NCBI GenBank assembly: GCA_013150955.1
Contig: JAADJD010000002.1
Coordinates: 1 to 28,412, forward strand
DNA from: Calditrichota bacterium
Lineage (GTDB): Bacteria > Calditrichota > Calditrichia > RBG-13-44-9 > J042
Direction of reading: 5' to 3'
DNA: 28,412 nt
Positions 4,078 to 27,092 of the stretch are shown here, in pieces. Both the position numbers and the translations under genes were made by a program. Positions within the stretch are counted from its first letter, which is position 1, and every line of letters starts with the position of its first letter. The notes beneath the pieces were generated by a model that was not told the DNA's origin, did not search any database, and saw nothing but the letters and a program-made list of their open reading frames with translations.

Positions 4078-4164
4078 TCCTTATTTTTCGTCTTGAATGA
4101 ACACAAAATTTAATGATAAAACATTTATTTTGAAAAAAAGAATTTTGCGGAAACGCCTCTTTTA

Positions 4165-4456
4165 TCCCGGATGATGCATTCGCCTGCGAATGACACGAAT
4201 TAACCCGAACAAAAATAATAAACTCAGATGATGCCTTAAACCACGAATTGCACGAATTAACACAAATAGAACCAATTAAATCCATTGGATTGTGTCTGGA
4301 TGAAAATGTGTTTCAGGGTTTATTCGCGATTTTGTAGGTATTTTTTGTTTTCATTCGTGTGATTCGTAGTTTATCGCATAATTTGGGATGATTCGAATTC
4401 ATTCGCGTGATTCGTGGTTTAGTGTATTATTTGGTTTAATGCATTATTGGGGTTTA
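4165..4456 (-). repeat. Dispersed element, locus 3: composite of nested copies
   Basis: The outer left half begins CCCGGATGATGCATT. A full inner copy runs from about 4223 (CTCAGATGATGCC) to 4387 (ATAATTTGGG). After it come the outer right half and a second, partly duplicated right end finishing ATTATTGGGG. Flanks of the inner copy (ATAAA and ATGAT) no longer match well, so this may be an older insertion. The locus lies between the HMG-CoA synthase and methyltransferase genes, both minus, and is co-oriented with them. Confidence 0.8.
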
Positions 4457-13523: not shown

Positions 13524-13826
13524 ATGGAAGCGAACCTGGTCACGCGAGGCAAAACCCGGCGGCGGCATGCCCCCGCCGCCATCGAAGTAAAAGGCGATTT
13601 GCTACTTCAATTGTACGAACTGCTGCAGGGGGAGCGAGGGATGGTCAGAGTGTACAGCCGCGCCCTACAAAGCGACGTCTGCTTTGTCAATCCCGCCGTC
13701 CAGGATCCCGAAACGCTGGAAGTGGATTGCCCCGTCTACACCACCCGGGAGCTGGCATTTGTCCTTTCCCTTTCGGAAGAAGAGTTCCGGCGATTTCATT
13801 ATCTGAAAACCCGGTTGATTGGATAA
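13524..13826 (+). CDS. Hypothetical protein (100 aa) in the SOS-type cluster
   Basis: A 100-residue soluble protein with a basic N-terminus (GKTRRRHAPAA) followed by a region of alternating helices: IEVKGDLLLQLYELLQGERG, then a central strand-rich part and LSLSEEEFRRFHYLKTRLIG at the end. I recognise no family. AAAGGGA precedes the ATG, and the composition resembles its neighbours, so it is probably real. It follows the DUF6504-like gene by 70 bases on the same strand. Confidence 0.6.
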   Translation: MEANLVTRGKTRRRHAPAAIEVKGDLLLQLYELLQGERGMVRVYSRALQSDVCFVNPAVQDPETLEVDCPVYTTRELAFVLSLSEEEFRRFHYLKTRLIG

Positions 13827-14040
13827 GCAAATTCGCACCATTTTCGTTTTTTCACCCACCAATCGGTGCCCCGGTACACGGCAGTTGCGCTTTCTTCGCC
13901 AATGCCCACGCTGTCGCATCCCCTGTGGGACGTCATCAATTTTTGGCATCGAATTGACCATGAAGGCTTTCACATTCGCTAAGGGCCTGTTTGGACAAGC
14001 TTGAAAAAAGACCGACAAAACGTAAACCCAATAGATTCAA
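13827..14040. other. Intergenic stretch before repeat locus 4
   Basis: No gene is recognised in this stretch. The plus-strand open frame from 13819 has no ribosome site or domain. It ends in repeat locus 4. Confidence 0.4.
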
Positions 14041-14204
14041 CCCAAATAAAGTGTAGACCACGGATCACGCGAATGAATTTGAAAAAAATCAACAAAATCG
14101 CGAATATATCCGGGAAAACATTTTCATCCAGATTGAATCCAGTGCATTGTATTATTTTTGTTGGTGTGAATTCGTGTCATTCGTAGGCGAATGTATAATC
14201 TGGG
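14041..14204 (+). repeat. Dispersed element, locus 4
   Basis: A 164-bp copy beginning CCCAAATAAAGTG and ending TGTATAATCTGGG. It is flanked by a perfect 5-bp direct duplication TTCAA (14036-14040 and 14205-14209). It lies between plus-strand genes and is oriented with them. Confidence 0.88.
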
Positions 14205-14451
14205 TTCAAGTTTCAAACGAAAGTGGGATGGAATCCATGCCTCAAATCGCAACTCTTCGATTTCGAAAAAGTTGAAAAATTCGCGCAGGATCCGCAAATT
14301 GTGATTTGTTTTTGACAAAGAAATTGTGAAATTATGGCTATCGACAAGGGGAAAACGTCCGGAAGATTGGTTTGTTCTGCCCCATGGGAATAATGAAAGA
14401 AAATGGTCGAAAAAAACAGGATGAACAAACCCCATTACAGGAGAATCGAGT
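14205..14451 (+). promoter_or_regulatory. Upstream region of the TPR-like gene with a weak promoter candidate
   Basis: TTGACA (14312-14317) is present, but no good -10 box is found at the usual spacing; TATGGC at 14333 is only 15 bases away. A functional promoter here is plausible but weakly supported. An AGGAGA ribosome site lies just before the next gene. Confidence 0.3.
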
Positions 14452-15036
14452 ATGGCTTCCTCAAAAGAGTTTATTGATCAGGATCGAGAGGTTGCGGGAG
14501 AATTTTACGATTTAATTGAAAAGCTCGACAATCTTCCCATCCAGACGGCAAAAAAAGAGCTGCAAAAGCTGATCCGCAAGGATCCCGATTTTCTGGATTC
14601 GTATTTGCTGCTTGCCGAACTTCATCTGGAAGAGGATGATCTTGAAGCCAGAGATAGGTTGATCGACCAGGCCTACCAGCGGGCCGTTCAGCTGATCACG
14701 GATGAAACCGGTCAATGGCCCGAAGAATTGCGCTGGGGATGGTGGAGGAATCGCCATATCATCCGTGCGCTGCTTACCAAAGGGATACAATTGTGGGAAA
14801 CCGGAGAAGACAAAGCGGCCCTGGAATTGTTCCGCTATCTTTTGCGGAGCAATCCGAACGACAATCCCGGGGTGCGCTTCTACATCCTGGGCGTTCGCAT
14901 GGGAATGAGCTTCCAGGACTTCGAGCGGCGGTTCAACAAAGGCGGCTATTACGACGAGGATCTGGATGAGTGGTTTGCCAAAAATTCCGCCCGCTTTCCC
15001 GATGAATTCGATTGGTGGGAAAAGCTGTTTTCTTAA
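14452..15036 (+). CDS. Tetratricopeptide-like helical repeat protein
   Basis: A 194-residue acidic, all-helical cytosolic protein. At least two TPR-like helix pairs are visible: AKKELQKLIRKDPDFLDSYL with LLAELHLEEDDLEARDRLI (about 35-75), and ALLTKGIQLWETGEDKAALE with LFRYLLRSNPNDNPGVRFYI (about 105-145). The NPNDNxGxR segment is a recurring feature of some bacterial TPR proteins related to the ST7 group. The C-terminus is rich in Trp, Phe and Asp (FDWWEKLF). Such proteins are usually protein-binding scaffolds, and no partner is suggested nearby. AGGAGA precedes the ATG. Confidence 0.7.
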   Translation: MASSKEFIDQDREVAGEFYDLIEKLDNLPIQTAKKELQKLIRKDPDFLDSYLLLAELHLEEDDLEARDRLIDQAYQRAVQLITDETGQWPEELRWGWWRNRHIIRALLTKGIQLWETGEDKAALELFRYLLRSNPNDNPGVRFYILGVRMGMSFQDFERRFNKGGYYDEDLDEWFAKNSARFPDEFDWWEKLFS

Positions 15037-15189
15037 TCTCGTTTCTTTGCGCAGAAACGCCCTGTCCGTTCCTGCACCAAAATTCTCAGCGGCTTGCTCA
15101 ATGAGGGGGAAGAATTTGCCCGGAGGTGGATCTGCTCCCGGCTTTTCCCGATGCCCGAGAATCGGGCACCGATTTCACCAGGGTATGAA

Positions 15190-15354
15190 CCCAGATAATG
15201 CATGAAACCGTGAATCACGCGAATGGAACCCAAAAATATCTGCAAAATCGCGAATAACCCCTGGAACACATTTTCATCCCGATTTCATCAAGTGGATTTT
15301 ATTATTTTTATTCGTTTTAATTCGTGTAATTCGTAGGCGAATGCATGATCCGGG
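15190..15354 (+). repeat. Dispersed element, locus 5
   Basis: A 165-bp copy beginning CCCAGATAATGCATG and ending ATGCATGATCCGGG. It is flanked by the perfect direct duplication ATGAA (15185-15189 and 15355-15359). It is co-oriented with the plus-strand genes around it. Confidence 0.88.
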
Positions 15355-15436
15355 ATGAACAGCCGTACGCAAAGAATTTCATTTCACCCGGCAGGGATCC
15401 AGAGTTATATTTGAACAAAATGGAAGGACAGGAGGA

Positions 15437-15589
15437 ATGACCATTTCTGCCCGTATCATCTTCGGGGATAGCCGCAAGATGGTTGAGTTGGTCCCGTCGG
15501 AAGCATTCGATTCGGAAAGATTGCGCAACACCACTCCTTTCCCCCCTTCAAACCCGGCGAGTATTACGCATCACCGTGAAGGTGATTGA
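15437..15589 (+). pseudogene. Remnant of a DNA methyltransferase N-terminus
   Basis: A 50-codon frame preceded by AGGAGGA starts MTISARIIFGDSRKMVELVP. This matches the opening of site-specific DNA methyltransferases (consensus RIIFGDSRKM, the SAM-binding loop), but the catalytic SPPY region that should follow is missing and the frame stops after 50 codons. Downstream fragments such as KVIDFRG in another frame may be the tail of the same or an associated gene. It appears to be the deleted modification gene of the restriction system whose other remains lie at 16257-16761. The match is from memory of the family; a search would settle it. Confidence 0.6.
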
Positions 15590-15655
15590 TTTTCGCGGGA
15601 ATTGAGGGGGGGAAGGTCGCCCAATTGGAAGAGCAAAAATAGGGAGTATATTTAA

Positions 15656-15883
15656 ATGAAATTTAAACGCATCACAGTGGATCCTCAGCAAATGGGAGGT
15701 GTTCCCTGTATCCGGGGATTACGCATCCCTGTGGCGACGATTGTTGGAATGATTGCGGATGGAATGACAGAAAAAGAAATTCTGGAAGCGTATCCAGACC
15801 TGGAACCAGAAGATATCCGCGAAGCGTTGCGGTATGCCGCTGAAGCCGTAAAAGAACGAGAAATTCCCCTTCTAGTCCCATGA
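15656..15883 (+). CDS. DUF433 antitoxin (VapB-like)
   Basis: A 75-residue protein with the DUF433 pattern: [40 protein letters not shown], and [18 protein letters not shown]. The second half forms a winged-helix-like DNA-binding fold. It acts as antitoxin to the overlapping PIN-like toxin and probably represses the operon. GGGAG precedes the ATG. The stop overlaps the toxin start by four bases (ATGA), ensuring coupled translation. The gene looks intact even though the restriction genes on either side are wrecked. Confidence 0.88.
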
Positions 15884-16260
15884 AATTTTTAGTGGACAAT
15901 GCATTGTCTCCTCTCGTAAGCAGGAAACTTTCCGAAGCAGGACATGATGCTGTTCATGTTCGTGACTATGGACTACAGTCTGCTACGGATAAAGTAATAT
16001 TTAGGAAAGCAAAAGCAGAAGATCGTATTATTATAACAGCGGATACAGATTTCGGATTTTTGTTAGCTTTGTGGGAATTTTCGAAACCATCGATTATTTT
16101 GCTACGAAGAAATTCTGGTCGCCGTCCGGAACAACAGGCTGCGTTAATATTAGCTAATTTACCAAAGATAGAAAAAGATCTGATGCAGGGAAGTATCGTC
16201 GTTTTTGAAGAAAAACGGATACGTATTCGACAGTTGCCTATCGGAAAAGGTGACGAATGA
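15880..16260 (+). CDS. DUF5615 PIN-like toxin
   Basis: A 126-residue protein of the Mut7-C/PIN-like toxin family. It opens [21 protein letters not shown] with the first acidic residue (Asp6), followed by [11 protein letters not shown] and the second acidic pair in [15 protein letters not shown]. These Asp residues form the metal-binding site expected for an RNase. It is partner to the DUF433 antitoxin, with a four-base overlap, and its own stop overlaps the start of the restriction-gene remnant by four bases. It is more AT-rich than the flanking genes. The activity (RNA cleavage) is a family inference. Confidence 0.88.
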
Positions 16261-16761
16261 GCTTGCCTGTCGATGCCCCCATCATTAACTCCCCTTTTGA
16301 AGTGCCTACCCGCTATTGGGCTTTGCGAAGAGGGACAGCCCATTCTGAGATCAGGACGGCGTCCCGCTGGCTATTATTCAACTTGTCGAGAGACTCCCGG
16401 AAAATCGTGGATACCGTAGGCAAGACCAAGTGGGATGGTGGAGGCGAACCACCAGGAAAAAACATTCGCTGTGTGGTAGCCGTCGGCATGCTCACCGAGG
16501 GATGGGATCCCGGAACGTGACTCAAATTCTGGGATTGCGCGCATTGACTTCTCAATTGCTCTGTGAACAGGACTTCGTCGGATGAATTATGACGGCTTCC
16601 TGGAACCGGAATACGTGGACGTTTGTGGTGTGCCGTTTGAGGTAATGCCTGCAAAAAAGAAAAAGATCGGCGCGACCGATGTCAAAAAGCCTACACGACC
16701 AACCAGGCCCTGCCCGGGCGGAAACATCATCACCTTGCTAAAATCAAAAAAACTTTTCTGA
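16257..16761 (+). pseudogene. Decayed helicase-type restriction endonuclease (type III-like)
   Basis: Pieces of one large restriction protein appear in order but in several frames. They are: APIINSPFEVPTRYWAL (frame 1, from 16257), then GQPILRSGRRPAGYY (shifted), a large internal deletion, VDTVGKTKWDGGGEPPGKNI and VVAVGMLTEGWDPG (frame 1), NVTQILGLRALTSQLLCEQ (shifted), and GLRRMNYDGFLEPEYVDVCG to the stop near 16761. The TEGWD and Q..GLRR segments are the SF2 helicase motifs V and VI of these enzymes. In motif VI the four codons for VVGR are missing. Most of the protein (the N-terminal helicase core) is gone. The start codon overlaps the toxin stop, showing that the toxin-antitoxin pair sat inside the original operon. 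Confidence 0.85.
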
Positions 16762-16877
16762 TTTTTTATTTGTGAATAACAGCCATCATCTGTTTTCTTA
16801 TGTCAATCCCTTCTACGCCATTGTGGCCTGGTAGGAAAAAATTTCTTTGTGCAAATCTGTGGTAATCTGCAAAATCC

Positions 16878-18122
16878 ATGACGAGCCCCAACTCCCCCCT
16901 CATCGCCCACATTGATGCGGATGCGTTTTTTGCTTCTGTGGAGCAGGGATTTAATCCCCTGCTGCGGGGCAGGCCGGTCATTGTAGGTGGAACGGAAAAT
17001 CAACGCGGCGTGGTGCACACCGCCAGTTACGAGGCCCGTGCCCGCGGTGTGCGCACCGGTATGCCCCTGGTGCAGGCAAAGGAAATCTGCCCCGATGCGG
17101 TTTTCCTCAAAGGCCATTTTCAGCATTATCAGGCGGCCTCGCTGGTGTTGCAGGAAATTTACCTGCGTTACACCCCGGTGGTGGAATTTACCTCCCTGGA
17201 TGACGCCTACCTGGATCTGACCGGAACCCGGCATCTGTTCATTGGCCCTGGCAAGCTTCCCGATCCCGAGGCCCTGGGACGGGAAATTCAGCAGGCGGTG
17301 GATCGTGCCCTGCACATTGGGGTGTCCATTGGACTGGCCAGCAACAAGGTGGTGGCCCGCATTGCCTCGGGACGCCGGAAGCCCCGCGGTGTGGTTTACG
17401 TGCCACCGGGCAGGGAAAAGGAATTTCTGGCCCCCTTGCCGGTGGATGAGCTTCCCGGAGTGGGACGGGTGGCCAAGGAAAAGCTGACCGATTTGAAGAT
17501 TTTTACCATTGGTCAGCTGGCTGCCATGCCCGAACAGGTACTGGAAGAGGTTTTTGGGGCCAATGGCAAAAGGCTGTGGGAACTGGCCAACGGCATCGAT
17601 CCGCGTCCCGTGCGCACCCGAATTCTGCCCAAACAGATCAGTCGCGAAACCACGTTCGAGGAGGACACCATGGATCGAACGTTGATTCTGTCCACCCTGC
17701 GCTACCTGACGGAACGCATCGCCAGCAAATTGCGTCAGCAGGGATTGAAGGCCCGGCGCATGGGGGTGAAGATTCGTTACTCGGACTTCACCCAGCACCA
17801 GCAGAGCTGCACGCTTCCTCAGGCAACGGACAACGCGGGGGAACTTTTTGCGGCCATTGAGCAACGGATTTGCCAGCTTCCCTGGCGCCGCCTGCGGGTG
17901 CGGCACGTGGGTGTCCAGGCCAGTCTCATCGAATGGAGTTGCCTGCAACCCCGCCTGTTCGACGATCCGCAGCGACAGGAGTTGCTGGACGCCGCTGTGG
18001 ATGCCATTCGCCAGAAGTTCGGCTTCATGGCCATCCTGCCGGCCGACACGCTGGAGCTACGCAAAAAATATCGCATCGAAAAATCCGGCTACATCCTGCA
18101 TTCCCCGGCATTAACCCGGTGA
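16878..18122 (+). CDS. dinB: DNA polymerase IV, Y-family translesion polymerase
   Basis: A 414-residue error-prone polymerase that copies past DNA lesions. The palm begins IAHIDADAFFASVEQ with metal ligand Asp13. The second site reads VEFTSLDDAYLDLTG with Asp108 and Asp109, where the family normally has Asp-Glu. The helix-hairpin-helix region is PLPVDELPGVGRVAKEKLTDL. The little-finger domain spans about 250-350. A QPRLFDD motif at 357-363 resembles the sliding-clamp-binding motif of UmuC. No clear ribosome site precedes the ATG. It is separated from the lexA cluster by 5 kb. The last 14 codons and stop lie in a 45-bp repeat found again at 18920. Confidence 0.93.
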   Translation: MTSPNSPLIAHIDADAFFASVEQGFNPLLRGRPVIVGGTENQRGVVHTASYEARARGVRTGMPLVQAKEICPDAVFLKGHFQHYQAASLVLQEIYLRYTPVVEFTSLDDAYLDLTGTRHLFIGPGKLPDPEALGREIQQAVDRALHIGVSIGLASNKVVARIASGRRKPRGVVYVPPGREKEFLAPLPVDELPGVGRVAKEKLTDLKIFTIGQLAAMPEQVLEEVFGANGKRLWELANGIDPRPVRTRILPKQISRETTFEEDTMDRTLILSTLRYLTERIASKLRQQGLKARRMGVKIRYSDFTQHQQSCTLPQATDNAGELFAAIEQRICQLPWRRLRVRHVGVQASLIEWSCLQPRLFDDPQRQELLDAAVDAIRQKFGFMAILPADTLELRKKYRIEKSGYILHSPALTR

Positions 18123-18123
18123 T
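18079..18123 (+). repeat. Left copy of a perfect 45-bp direct repeat (end of dinB)
   Basis: This segment, running from AAAAATCCGGC to CCCGGTGAT, includes the last codons and stop of dinB. It is repeated base for base at 18920-18964, offset by 841 bp. The repeat brackets an AT-rich insert. Confidence 0.95.
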
Positions 18124-18919
18124 AGAACTAATTATTGTTTTGATTTTATAATCTTATCGTGTATTTTTATTTATAAATTGTTTGATGTTTTTACAGTTAA
18201 TTTTTTGTCCTTTATGTGTGGGTAAATTATGAAAATTTTTCCTTTTTCTATCCTTTTGCTTATTTTTTGTTTTTCCTATTTGTTTTCACAATTACATAAA
18301 GAAAATGAATTTCGTTTGAGTATTTTGCTAACTGTTTCCGCAGATGAAGATCTGCAAAGTGAAATTTTAAGTTATTTAACTCGTGAATTTCGTTCGATTC
18401 CAGATGTGGAAATAGTTGAAGAAAATCCTGATTGGATAATTTCTGTAGTCGCATCAAAGTTAATGTTAAAAAATGGATATATTGCAGGGATTGCTATTTC
18501 AGTTTCCTATATTCAAATGCCAAATAAAAAGCTTAAATATGCAATAAATAGAGCTCTTTATCCAATAAATAATGAAGATAAATCGGTACTTTATTTATTA
18601 AATAAATCTATTTTATTTTTCCTCAATTTATATGTAAAAAATTTAACGTATTTCCATCATCATGAATTATTGTTGGTTCCATTAGAAGATTTAAAACAAA
18701 TTTGTCAAAAATTCGTTGCTGAATTTGATGGTGAGTATCTTGAGCCTCAACGAAAAAGATTTTATGAAGACCAACAAAATTCTAAAAAATCAAATAGTGG
18801 ATTGGATATCGATTTTGATTTTTTTGAATTGGACACTTTATTACATTCTCCAAATAAGTAAGTTTTGGTATTTTTAAAATTTAGGTATCGATATTGATTA
18901 TTTAAAAAACACTTTCAGA
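18124..18919. mobile_element. AT-rich insert bracketed by the dinB 3'-end duplication
   Basis: A block of about 800 bp far richer in A+T than the DNA on both sides, with sharp boundaries at the two 45-bp repeats. It holds one gene (18229-18861) and no recombinase. The arrangement resembles an integrative cassette that uses the 3' end of a host gene as attachment site and restores the reading frame. A duplication formed by recombination of horizontally acquired DNA is the alternative. The mobile label is inference; the repeat and composition shift are visible. Confidence 0.6.
18229..18861 (+). CDS. Exported protein of unknown function in the AT-rich insert
   Basis: A 210-residue protein with a clear N-terminal signal peptide: MKIFPFSILLLIFCFSYLFS, a Lys followed by a hydrophobic stretch. 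There is no lipobox Cys at the expected position, so secretion to the periplasm rather than lipidation is likely. The mature part alternates short strands and helices and has an acidic C-terminal tail (DIDFDFFELD). No domain is recognised. Codon use is extremely AT-rich, unlike dinB just upstream but similar to the LVIVD protein at the window end. It is the only gene in the insert. Confidence 0.75.
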   Translation: MKIFPFSILLLIFCFSYLFSQLHKENEFRLSILLTVSADEDLQSEILSYLTREFRSIPDVEIVEENPDWIISVVASKLMLKNGYIAGIAISVSYIQMPNKKLKYAINRALYPINNEDKSVLYLLNKSILFFLNLYVKNLTYFHHHELLLVPLEDLKQICQKFVAEFDGEYLEPQRKRFYEDQQNSKKSNSGLDIDFDFFELDTLLHSPNK

Positions 18920-18964
18920 AAAAATCCGGCTACATCCTGCATTCCCCGGCATTAACCCGGTGAT
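18920..18964 (+). repeat. Right copy of the 45-bp direct repeat
   Basis: Identical to 18079-18123. It lies outside any gene and appears to be the original 3' end of dinB displaced by the insert. The DNA that follows (TTGGTCGGTAAA and on) returns to the normal base composition. Confidence 0.95.
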
Positions 18965-19080
18965 TGGTCGGTAAATATCGGGGGTTGCTACCGTCCTTTT
19001 GAGGGGGATGAAAACGACCCACCTGTTTCGGGAAAGTTGGGGTGCGCGGGGTTATCTGAACTGTCCTGAATGGGATTGAA

Positions 19081-19244
19081 CCCAGATTATGCATTCGACC
19101 ACGAATTACACGAATTAACACGAATAAAATTAATAAAATACATTGGATTATTTCTGGATGAAAATGTGTTTCGAGGTTTATTCATGATTTTATTGATATT
19201 TTTGGTTGTATTCGCGTGATTCGCGGTTTAATGCAAAATTTGGG
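19081..19244 (-). repeat. Dispersed element, locus 6, abutting the GGDEF stop codon
   Basis: A 164-bp copy beginning CCCAGATTATGCATT and ending AAAATTTGGG. Flanks are TTGAA (19076-19080) and TTAAA (19245-19249), a 5-bp duplication with one mismatch. The right flank includes the TAA stop of the HDOD-GGDEF gene, so the insertion lies exactly at the end of that reading frame. It is co-oriented with that minus-strand gene. Confidence 0.88.
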
Positions 19245-20783
19245 TTAAATATTCTGAAATCCGATGCACTGGTTGCCCCCGTTCGTTTTTGCATGCTGCA
19301 GGGCTTCCAGTACCATGTTTAAGAGATGCTCTTTCTTCATCAGCGAAAAATTGGGGATAAGGGTGGCGTAGCCAATGGCCACCGTCAGATGATGTTTCAT
19401 GTCCCGCAGGGGATCCAGAAACGGGTGGCGATCCACGTTTTTTCGGATTTTTTCGGCCACAAAATGTACCGGTACCTGTCCCGTATGGGGCAGAATGATT
19501 GCAAATTCGTCGCCCCCATAACGGGCCAACAAATCCGCCTGGCGAAGGTTACGTTTTAAAATCTCGGCCACCTGCTCCAGAATCGCATTACCGGTCTTAA
19601 AACCATATGTTTGATTAAACAGGGTGAAATGGTCAATGTCAATGATCAGCAGCGAAATGGGATGTTCATAGCGTGCAGACTGAGAAACGGCTTTATGGAG
19701 AAATTCGTGGAAGTAGGCATGATTGTAAAGGCCGGTGATGGGATCCAGGAAGTTGTTCAGAGAAATCTCCGCCCGTACCCGATTGAGTTCTTCCCTTAAT
19801 TTTTCAATCTGCTCCCGACTTTTCCCGAGTTCTTTCAACAAATCTTCATACCCAATGATTCGTTTTTTAACAAATTCTTTGTTTTGCAGGAACAGATGGG
19901 TGACCGATTGTTCTTCCAGCTGGGAAAATCCCAGTCCACGGGCAAAGCCAGAAATCTTTTCCAGAGATGTTCGGATGAGGTGGGGGAGTGTCTCCGGCGA
20001 GCGCTGAAAGTACCGATTGTACCGGGCTTCAATTTCATTAAATCGAAGGGCATCAGGAGCTTCCAGGGTAACTCGAGCCAGTTCCGCGGCCACATTGAGC
20101 ACGCCCGCCAGCTTCTGTACCATGGCATCCTCTGGCGGCTGACGATCGATGGCGTGATGGAACCGAATTGGGGGCAGGAATTCCGGTGGAAATCCCCAGC
20201 GCTGTACAATGTCTGCAGAAAGTTCCGCGTGCGTCCAGCCCAGATTTTTTGCCTCTTCGCGCTCCAGATCCCTGGCCTTGCTTTTAATGGTCATCAATCG
20301 CTCATAAAGTTCGGGAATGCATCGGGACAGCGCCAGGTAGGCCACATCCTGGAGCATGGATTGCAGGTAGACTTCTTCAGGCCTGGGAATGGCCAGCTCC
20401 CGCGACATCTGCTCCGCAAACACTGCGGATAAGAAAATTTGCTGCCGGAAAAGGGGGTAATCCAGCTGTTCGTACCGATTGATCGGTTCCAGATGAGATA
20501 GCCAGAGGCTAAAAATTAAATTGCGCAAAACCGGAATGGGAACCAGGTCGACTAAAGTCTTGCCATCCTGGATTTTTTTTCGGAAATTGAAATATCGACT
20601 ATTAACGATGGGGTAGAGAACTTCTTTATATTCGCTGATGAGAGGAAGAACGGCCCGATTGGCGCGCCCGGTGCGATTGGTGCGTTTTTCATACGACCGC
20701 TGAATCAATTCCAGAAGAATGTTTGGTGGTGCTGGAAACCGGGGAGATTTCTCAAAGATTTCCAGTACACGTTCTTTGTTCAT
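19245..20783 (-). CDS. HDOD-GGDEF diguanylate cyclase
   Basis: A 512-residue cytosolic signalling protein. Residues about 10-230 form an HDOD domain (PAPPNILLELIQRSY, LRNLIFSLWLSHLEP, EVYLQSMLQDVAYLALSR, GWTHAELSADIVQRWGFP). A coiled-coil linker spans about 315-345. The catalytic GGDEF domain covers the rest, starting DPITGLYNHAYFHEFL. The active loop at 423-427 is intact GGDEF. The inhibitory I-site RQAD is at 414-417, so the enzyme probably makes cyclic di-GMP under product inhibition. HDOD domains commonly sense or relay signals in place of an HD phosphohydrolase. Its ribosome site is only weakly purine-rich. A 76-bp palindromic element lies 28 bases upstream. It is monocistronic. Confidence 0.92.
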   Translation of the reverse strand: MNKERVLEIFEKSPRFPAPPNILLELIQRSYEKRTNRTGRANRAVLPLISEYKEVLYPIVNSRYFNFRKKIQDGKTLVDLVPIPVLRNLIFSLWLSHLEPINRYEQLDYPLFRQQIFLSAVFAEQMSRELAIPRPEEVYLQSMLQDVAYLALSRCIPELYERLMTIKSKARDLEREEAKNLGWTHAELSADIVQRWGFPPEFLPPIRFHHAIDRQPPEDAMVQKLAGVLNVAAELARVTLEAPDALRFNEIEARYNRYFQRSPETLPHLIRTSLEKISGFARGLGFSQLEEQSVTHLFLQNKEFVKKRIIGYEDLLKELGKSREQIEKLREELNRVRAEISLNNFLDPITGLYNHAYFHEFLHKAVSQSARYEHPISLLIIDIDHFTLFNQTYGFKTGNAILEQVAEILKRNLRQADLLARYGGDEFAIILPHTGQVPVHFVAEKIRKNVDRHPFLDPLRDMKHHLTVAIGYATLIPNFSLMKKEHLLNMVLEALQHAKTNGGNQCIGFQNI

Positions 20784-20886: not shown

Positions 20887-21106
20887 TCATTTGTCCCAAT
20901 CGGATAAAATACAAATATCGTGCCTGAAATAAAAAACCGTCAAAAACGGCAGAATAGTGTAAAATACGGGCCTCAGGGCCTGTTTTTCCGGGAATGGGTG
21001 ATGGGAATTCGGACACCCGCCTGTCGGGAATATCAACTCTTCTGCCAGTGAAATTCAACCTGAGCCGTCAGCGAAAGGTGGGTGGGAGATCCCGTCCACC
21101 ATTAAA
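20887..21106. other. Divergent intergenic region
   Basis: No gene is seen in this stretch. It contains further small dyads such as CCGTCAAAAACGG and GGGCCTCAGGGCC. It must contain the promoter for the GGDEF gene, but no good match could be picked by eye. Confidence 0.35.
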
Positions 21107-21271
21107 CCCAAATAATGCATAAAACCGCGAAACACACGAATGAAACCAAAAAATATCTACAAAATCGTGAATAAACCCCGGAATACATTTTCATCCGGAT
21201 ACAATCCAATGCATTTTATTTGTTTTATTTGTGTTAATTCGTGTAATTCGTAGGTTAATGCATAATCTGGG
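21107..21271 (+). repeat. Dispersed element, locus 7
   Basis: A 165-bp copy from CCCAAATAATGCAT to ATGCATAATCTGGG with a perfect 5-bp duplication TTAAA (21102-21106 and 21272-21276). It sits in the divergent region and is oriented with the plus-strand AbrB/PIN operon that follows. Confidence 0.88.
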
Positions 21272-21426
21272 TTAAAGGATGGCTTCCTGAACCGGGAAGT
21301 GTGGCGGGACTGACAGGGGGTGGAGTGGTCTTGAAGTCAAAAAGCACCGGTTGCCGTGTTGAAGAAATAAATCGTTTGTATCCCGGAAGGGAGGTTGCTA
21401 TCTTTACTAAAAACAACGGGGTGCAA

Positions 21427-22814: not shown

Positions 22815-23656
22815 AACCAGCCCAAACCATTCTCATCCTGGGAGGGAATGAACTGGCCAGCGCAACTGCCCTGGAGCTGGTTCAGGCGGGCTTTGCGGTG
22901 ATGCTCTACGTTTCCCCGGATGAAACCTACCTGCGATATCCCCTTTGTTTTGGCGAAGCGCTCCGGGCCGGTCAAAAGACCATTGGGGATCTAACAGCCT
23001 CCATTATCCCTGAAGAAAAGCTGGCGCAAATTCAGGGAAAAACATTCGCCGAGAAAATGATCCAGGTGGCGCAATTTCTTCTGCTGGATCGAATGTTGCC
23101 CGTGCTTTCGGACGTCCCGCTGAGGGAACTGCTTGCTGTTCTGGAAACCGTTATCGTGATCAATACGCTTCCTGAGGAAACGCTCAAGCTTCCCGAAGAC
23201 GCAGCGAATGGAATATTCCTGGGGTGTTTCCCGGAGCACCGGGGACATTCCCAATATCGACTGTTGGTGGAAACCCGCTGGAATTACCAGCTGGGTAAGA
23301 TCGTTCCCCCGGATGCGGAAGACCTTCACAAGCATCGGCTGGATCCCCATTTTTTTCATTTTCCTTTTCAGACCTGTCATACCCCGATCGAAGGCCTGTG
23401 GGTATCGGTAAAGGAAATCGGAGAAACCATTCGATATAACGAGGCCATTGGAAAAGTAGACGCAATCGAGATTCGTTCTCCTTACGATGGGCAACTCTGG
23501 GGAATTACCCACAGTGGGCAGTTTGTTGCGGCGGGACAGAATGTTGCGCTAATCTACACCGGTCGCCCTACGGAATTTTATCGTGACTACAGTTTTCAGG
23601 AACGTGCAGTTGCACGGGGATTTTTATCGGCGGTTCTGAAATTAATCCGGCAGTAA
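22811..23656 (+). CDS. YqeB-like protein (selenium-dependent molybdenum hydroxylase system)
   Basis: A 281-residue protein with an N-terminal Rossmann-like segment TILILGGNELASATALELVQ and the following QAGFAVMLYVSPDETYLRYP and CFGEALRAG. These match YqeB, which reads GAGDLATG, RLxxAGF and RRxVxFxEAVxxG at the same places. The C-terminus has a small beta-barrel-like part: IRSPYDGQLWGITHSGQFVAAGQNVALIYTG. Overlap with the YqeC-like gene is four bases. Function in selenium or molybdenum cofactor insertion is inferred from the family. The stop TAA at 23654-23656 sits directly against repeat locus 8. Confidence 0.65.
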   Translation: MKPAQTILILGGNELASATALELVQAGFAVMLYVSPDETYLRYPLCFGEALRAGQKTIGDLTASIIPEEKLAQIQGKTFAEKMIQVAQFLLLDRMLPVLSDVPLRELLAVLETVIVINTLPEETLKLPEDAANGIFLGCFPEHRGHSQYRLLVETRWNYQLGKIVPPDAEDLHKHRLDPHFFHFPFQTCHTPIEGLWVSVKEIGETIRYNEAIGKVDAIEIRSPYDGQLWGITHSGQFVAAGQNVALIYTGRPTEFYRDYSFQERAVARGFLSAVLKLIRQ

Positions 23657-23657
23657 A

Positions 23658-23993
23658 TGCAATTTATGCATGAAACCGTGAATCACGCGAATGAATCCAG
23701 AAGATATCCACAAAATCACGAAGAAACCCAAATAATGCATTGAACCGCGAATCACGCGAATGAATTCGAATAATATCAACAAAATAACGAATATATCCAG
23801 GAAAACATTTTCATCCAGATAGAGTCAAGTGCATTTTATTGTTGTTATTGGTGTTAATTCGTGAAATTCATGGTTCTAATGCATGATCTGGGATAAATCC
23901 TGAAACCAATTTTTATGCAGATATAATCAAATGAAATTTGTTATTTTTGTTCGTGTTATTTTGTGTAGTTCATAAGCGAATGCATAATCCGGG
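23658..23993 (+). repeat. Dispersed element, locus 8: outer copy interrupted by an inner copy
   Basis: The outer left half (AATTTATGCATGAAACC onward) begins two bases after the YqeB stop. It breaks at 23726 and resumes at 23893 (ATAAATCCTGAAACC), ending GCATAATCCGGG at 23993. Flanks of the outer copy (GTAAA and ACAAA) differ at two bases. The orientation is that of the plus-strand genes on both sides. Confidence 0.85.
23727..23892 (+). mobile_element. Inner copy of the dispersed element inserted within locus 8
   Basis: A 166-bp copy from CCCAAATAATGCATTG to GCATGATCTGGG. Flanking pentamers are AGAAA and ATAAA; the uninterrupted family consensus at this place reads GAATAAACC, so the left flank differs by a point change from a true ATAAA duplication. 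Removing it rejoins the two outer halves in register. Confidence 0.82.
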
Positions 23994-24024
23994 ACAAATG
24001 CCGTAAAACGGAAGGGGTGAATTG

Positions 24025-25422: not shown

Positions 25423-25503
25423 AGATCAGGGCCTTAGTCTCGTATCGGTACGAATTGGAACTCGCAACCGCTCATGAAATAGTAAGCTGCTATCAGGGAT
25501 AAA

Positions 25504-25673
25504 CCCAAATAATGCATTTAACCGTGAATCACGCGAATGAACCCAAAGGAAAGCATCTCCACAAACAGCAAATAATCCTGGAAACAAATTTTCATCAAGA
25601 TCTAATCCAATGGATTTTGTTATTTTTATTTGTGTTAATTCGTGTAATTCGTGGTTCTAATGCATGATCTGGG
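25504..25673 (+). repeat. Dispersed element, locus 9
   Basis: A 170-bp copy from CCCAAATAATGCATTT to ATGCATGATCTGGG. Flanks are ATAAA (25499-25503) and TTAAA (25674-25678), one mismatch. It lies between plus-strand genes and is co-oriented with them. Confidence 0.86.
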
Positions 25674-25794
25674 TTAAAAGCGGAGGGATCTGTTTCACCT
25701 GTATGCATTTGCGAAAAGGAAAATTCCAAAGGATCAATCTTTTTTTGGGCAATCCGATGATTGTCCTGTATTTTATTATGAAACATTGCGAAAA

Positions 25795-26482: not shown

Positions 26483-26860
26483 AAAATCCACATTCCCAAA
26501 TCCACAATCCAAAATCCGACATCCGCAATCCGACATCCGCAATCCGCAATCATTTCCGGTTGCCCTACAGGCAACACAAGGTATCGCTATTGGGTTTCGT
26601 GTCCCCCACGCGTTGCGTGGGGCTAACCTCTTTTTGCCCTTCGGGCAAATCGTTTCCACCAATGGCCCCACCTTCCGGAACGTAAACTCAGACCTCAGAC
26701 CTCCATCCCGGAAATTTGCCCCCAAATTCGCATTCCGACATCCGACATCCGAAATCCCCACCCCCTTCCGCCCCACAGGGGCACCATACGGTAGCCCGGA
26801 GTAACGCTCCGGGGATCGGAGAGATTCACCCAAAAAACACATGCGCCCTGTAAGGGCACA
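26483..26860. repeat. Hairpin array with degenerate heptamer tracts
   Basis: A non-coding stretch with two kinds of repeat. Degenerate tracts built on ATCCGCA/ATCCGAC occupy about 26483-26553 and 26725-26755. Between and after them are short perfect stem-loops: GTTGCC/GGCAAC (26559-26575), CCCCACGC/GCGTGGGG (26604-26622), TTTGCCC/GGGCAAA (26633-26649), GCCCC/GGGGC (26770-26782), CCCGGAG/CTCCGGG (26795-26813) and a GCCC/GGGC stem (26842-26860). The open frames across it are low-complexity artefacts of these tracts. It ends at repeat locus 10. Confidence 0.75.
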
Positions 26861-26865
26861 ATTAT

Positions 26866-27030
26866 CCCAAATAATGCATTAAACCGCAAATCACACGAAT
26901 GAACCCAAACCGTATCCACAAAATCGCGAATATACCCCAAAATAAATTTTCATTTAGATTTTATTTAATGTATTTGATTATTTTTATTTGTGTTAATTCG
27001 TGCAATTCGTGGTTTAATGAATAATCTGGG
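26866..27030 (+). repeat. Dispersed element, locus 10
   Basis: A 165-bp copy from CCCAAATAATGCATT to AATAATCTGGG. Flanks are ATTAT (26861-26865) and TTTAT (27031-27035), one mismatch. It directly follows the hairpin array. Confidence 0.85.
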
Positions 27031-27092
27031 TTTATTATATTTGTTCGTGTTAATTCGTGTCATTCGTAGGCTAATGCGTAATCTGTGTTAAA
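27031..27092 (+). repeat. Detached right half of another dispersed-element copy
   Basis: TTTGTTCGTGTTAATTCGTG onward to GCGTAATCTGTG matches only the right third of the family. Its left part is not found upstream of locus 10, so it was probably lost when the hairpin array or the neighbouring copy arrived. Confidence 0.75.

Follow-up and report, generated by a model that had tools for sequence, protein, structure and literature searches.

The window analysed here, a 28,412-nucleotide stretch of a Calditrichota genome (contig JAADJD010000002.1), carries dinB, which is followed by a block of AT-rich DNA enclosed between two copies of a 45-bp sequence (Table 1). A repeat search returned the two copies as a direct repeat, identical at 45 of 45 positions with a spacing of 841 bp, and found no third copy of the 45-mer in this genome, which bears out the perfect 45-bp duplication at the dinB 3′ end that the initial annotation had proposed. 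Two details of that proposal need adjusting. The repeat does include the stop codon, but it opens with 2 nt from a Glu codon, after which come 13 sense codons (K-S-G-Y-I-L-H-S-P-A-L-T-R), the TGA stop and 1 further nt, rather than the last 14 codons and stop; and the 841 bp given for the cassette is the insert proper, of 796 bp, plus one repeat copy.

Table 1 Features of the dinB region and positions of the dispersed repeat in the window.
Feature	Position	Strand	Description
Segment upstream of dinB	13810-16878		3 kb between conserved genes and dinB; missing in the congener
DUF5615 PIN-like gene	15880-16260		Adjoins the 87-aa ORF
87-aa ORF	16257-16520		Probably a gene fragment; no Pfam match
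dinB	16878..18122	+	Y-family DNA polymerase, 414 aa; Pfam IMS, IMS_C, IMS_HHH; intact, end from left repeat copy
Left repeat copy	18079..18123	+	100% identity; very end of dinB; one of only two copies in the genome
AT-rich insert	18124..18919	.	796 bp, 25% GC
P0001	18229..18861	+	210 aa; hydrophobic N-terminus, probably exported; remote homologue in G127
Right repeat copy	18920..18964	+	100% identity; outside any gene, then GC-rich host DNA downstream of dinB
Dispersed repeat	1-161, 1058-1389, 4159-4440, 14037-14210, 15183-15360, 19070-19253, 21100-21277, 23655-23998, 25497-25678, 26859-27092	both	60-230 bp; mostly intergenic

The edges of the repeat are sharp, because the bases outside it agree between the two contexts at just 9 of 30 and 7 of 30 positions. 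Its right edge falls one base past the dinB stop codon, and AAAAA is common to both sides at the right junction. When a 26-base core of the repeat was searched with 3 mismatches allowed, it matched only the two repeat copies in the whole window and nothing in 100 shuffles. The complete lack of differences (0 of 45) bounds the divergence of the copies at about 6% (95% bound), and since it holds although the right copy is non-coding, the duplication is probably young.

Between the repeats the GC content is 25%, against about 50% around the insert and in the genome. A single ORF of at least 80 amino acids, P0001, is contained in the insert. This agrees with the earlier description of a unit that holds one gene for an exported protein and no integrase: the ORF is complete, and its product is probably exported, because its N-terminus, read by eye, is hydrophobic. 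At the GC content of the insert, a 210-codon ORF would arise by chance with p of about 4e-9. The GC of P0001 by codon position (0.39/0.24/0.17, versus 0.66/0.43/0.70 in dinB) is that of a gene from an AT-rich genome, and among 2261 ORFs of at least 100 amino acids in 1.19 Mb sampled from the same genome, P0001 has the lowest GC. These values give good support to the initial view that base composition marks foreign DNA here, and the insert probably came from an AT-rich organism. P0001 has the same orientation as dinB, starts 106 bp past its stop codon and may be co-transcribed with it. A terminator-like site was not found in the insert.

P0001 had no match in Pfam or NCBIfam, gave one marginal match of 22 residues in PHROG, and was predicted alone as a structure with a pLDDT of 41. 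Searches of GTDB contigs, IMG/VR, phages and plasmids yielded no homologue. (Two of these scans were run with an alignment in which rows two and three were degenerate motifs and not real proteins; both came back empty, and nothing rests on them.) The sole relative found is a 197-amino-acid, probably exported protein in a genome (G127) of a small, distant phylum, with 23% identity and a pairwise E value of 2e-9. This match indicates a real, uncharacterised protein family, one that is patchy because 3 other genomes of the phylum of G127 lack a homologue.

The dinB 3′ end in related genomes

We compared the locus at genus level and above, with one genome per species. None of the remaining 39 phylum genomes contained P0001. 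The dinB-end motif was present in 20 of 40 phylum genomes, in two copies in this genome only and as a single copy in the 19 others, and none of the dinB ends checked in relatives recurred downstream (about 1.5 kb of downstream DNA in most). The AT-rich gene is thus not vertically conserved at this place, a prospect that the initial annotation had raised against an insertion. Since the other 39 genomes lack P0001 and none has a second dinB-end motif, the insertion is lineage-specific and probably recent, and it left dinB intact. With the left repeat copy serving as the end of an intact dinB, the claim that the insertion regenerates the end of the gene is also well supported. In the congener (G001), whose DinB orthologue shares 81% amino-acid identity, the 45 bases at the dinB end differ at 10 of 45 positions, and the DNA after them is unrelated.

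Candidate origins of the duplication

The reading that we favour, at a probability of roughly 0.5, is that the locus is a new example of insertion with long target duplication. According to three papers (PMC1643837, PMC3031569, PMC4978471), this pattern is documented for non-IS genes; they trace its first description to Nobusato et al. 2000, in Helicobacter pylori, where it often involves restriction-modification genes. The locus shares with that pattern non-IS DNA carrying a gene, long direct repeats of the target, a unit free of any recombinase gene and a horizontally acquired cargo. The long flanking repeats are target-derived, as the left copy forms the end of dinB, and the congener and 18 other genomes, compared at genus level and above, have a single repeat and no insert. 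Unlike the published cases, which mostly concern restriction-modification genes, the cargo here is a probably exported protein, and the phylum also differs.

Under insertion with long target duplication, a short fragment from the DNA of an AT-rich organism, with a single complete gene whose product is probably exported, would have entered at the dinB 3′ end, and its insertion would have copied 45 bp of the target into the direct repeats that now flank it. The duplication may have arisen during the insertion itself, most simply if replication or repair switched from the dinB template to the incoming DNA and rejoined 45 bp upstream; a possible point of rejoining is the AAAAA common to both sides of the right junction. 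The repeat equals the sequence of this species at every wobble base, where the congener is off at 10 of 45 positions; a local duplicate of the site itself would show this match, which is not expected of an att site brought from elsewhere. We found no Ku gene, which makes Ku-type end joining an unlikely route. Once formed, the repeats would let the gene be lost again through RecA or slippage, which would return the site to its former state. The empty site would read as the dinB end with a single 45-mer leading into TGGTCGG, and the junction of an excised circle would read CACTTTCAGA, one 45-mer, then AGAACTAATT.

Some points count against this explanation. By our estimate, if a duplication fell at random across the gene end and left dinB intact, its edge would lie at the stop codon in only a few percent of cases; for an att site that rebuilds the end of a gene, this position is inherent. 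In addition, exactly one complete gene lies in the fragment, and restriction-modification genes make up most of the published cases. If insertion with long target duplication is correct, the locus would be a clean, apparently recent case of a lone foreign gene entering a chromosome with a long target duplication and no mobile element in sight. Cases of this sort are relevant to how single genes are acquired in lineages that lack Ku-type end joining, and the weight of this one is modest because it is a single instance.

It is possible, with clearly lower probability, that the repeats are attL and attR, left by a tyrosine-recombinase element that carried the dinB 3′ end in its attP and regenerated the gene on integration. 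What remains would then be a minimal cassette moved by a recombinase in trans or the part of a larger island that internal deletion left behind. The regenerated gene end, the edge at the stop codon and the single enclosed gene all agree with this explanation, as does the repeat length, since 45 bp lies within the usual range of att identity blocks. It is well known that islands occupy 3′ ends of protein-coding genes, as SGI1 does at trmE (PMC8409611). The locus resembles SGI1-type elements in its duplicated terminal gene segment and intact host gene, and differs from them in its size of 796 bp, its one gene, its lack of an integrase and of transfer genes, and the absence of any other occupant found at the site.

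Several results speak against attL and attR. The insert contains no recombinase gene, and a genome-wide search that covered tyrosine recombinases found only two 301-amino-acid Xer-like proteins and one broken integron integrase. A recombinase-type inverted-repeat core was absent from the repeat, whose fold z-score was +0.68 with a stem of only 4 bp. No second two-copy repeat around AT-rich DNA occurred in 1.19 Mb (29%) of the same genome and nothing similar in 0.34 Mb of the congener; further cassettes at this gene end, which the initial annotation had suggested seeking, were not found in relatives, and the literature searched yielded nothing relevant on dinB serving as an attB site. The species-specific wobble match would also require the element to have adapted to this species. 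The proposal of a mobile cassette bounded by attL and attR is therefore not supported, given that only Xer-sized tyrosine recombinases are intact, that att-type structure is missing and that the sampled DNA holds no other cassette; nothing found so far demonstrates mobile-cassette status. We regard as improbable the more specific idea of a minimal, integrase-free cassette with one exported-protein gene, specific to the dinB 3′ end in this lineage and moved in trans by the recombinase of another element.

Known junction types were each searched for as well, and an integron cassette, a dif site, transposon ends and an Rfam element were all rejected. Neither strand of positions 17901-19200 contained an attC-like pair (RYYYAAC plus GTTRRRY cores), the best dif-like match in the repeat was no better than in shuffles, terminal inverted repeats of the insert were absent, and no Rfam element lay at the junctions. 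The locus does recall integron gene cassettes in its size and single-gene content, and this genome has a broken integron integrase; unlike such cassettes, it lacks the attC-like pair of core sites, and integron cassettes are not known to create a 45-bp target duplication when they insert. The broken integrase itself lies near a contig end (L097:12086-12953; G000:C33), and as its 3 fragments match successive parts of the TIGR02249 profile, the genome once carried an integron.

A Campbell-type single homologous crossover would yield exactly such a product, an insert between perfect copies, if the incoming DNA was circular or concatenated and had 45 bp of dinB in it beforehand. We consider it doubtful, as 45 bp is short for RecA and as an 841-bp circle with the dinB end of this very species needs an explanation of its own, for example an earlier excision from the same site. 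A non-autonomous transposon that belongs to an unknown type and makes a very long target-site duplication would account for a compact unit inside a long perfect duplication, and is very improbable: the unit is single-copy in the genome and shows no transposase or IS ends (its single ORF is without a Pfam or NCBIfam match, and inverted repeats are missing from its termini), and the target duplications of known bacterial transposons fall far below 45 bp. Equally remote is an assembly artefact, for although the assembly is fragmented (66 contigs) and has runs of N elsewhere, the region contains no N, and a join made falsely at the 45-mer presupposes a foreign AT-rich molecule that had the dinB end of this species at both of its ends.

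Surroundings of dinB and a dispersed repeat

The locus around dinB is plastic: about 3 kb upstream of the gene, as well as the downstream DNA, differ from the congener. There, dinB directly adjoins genes that are placed 3 kb further upstream here, and a short stretch after dinB matches the far end of our window. The upstream segment missing from the congener holds a TPR protein, a DUF5615 gene, a helicase-like fragment and repeats. The 87-amino-acid ORF in this segment ends in IRCVVAVGMLTEGWDPG, which we take to resemble a helicase motif of restriction enzymes. In two other genomes (G003:C76 and G010:C8; L010 and L027), an ORF directly after dinB has a start that looks like the PHP domain of the DNA polymerase III alpha subunit, which suggests a dinB-dnaE translesion pair there that was not seen in this genome.

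The window also contains a dispersed repeat at about ten places, with CGTGTAATTCG and its variants as the core. Its appearance is that of a MITE or REP-type element, and our searches found nothing on how its copies move. We counted the core 354 times in the 1.19 Mb sampled from this genome and 2 times in 0.34 Mb of the congener, and the repeat has thus expanded in this lineage.
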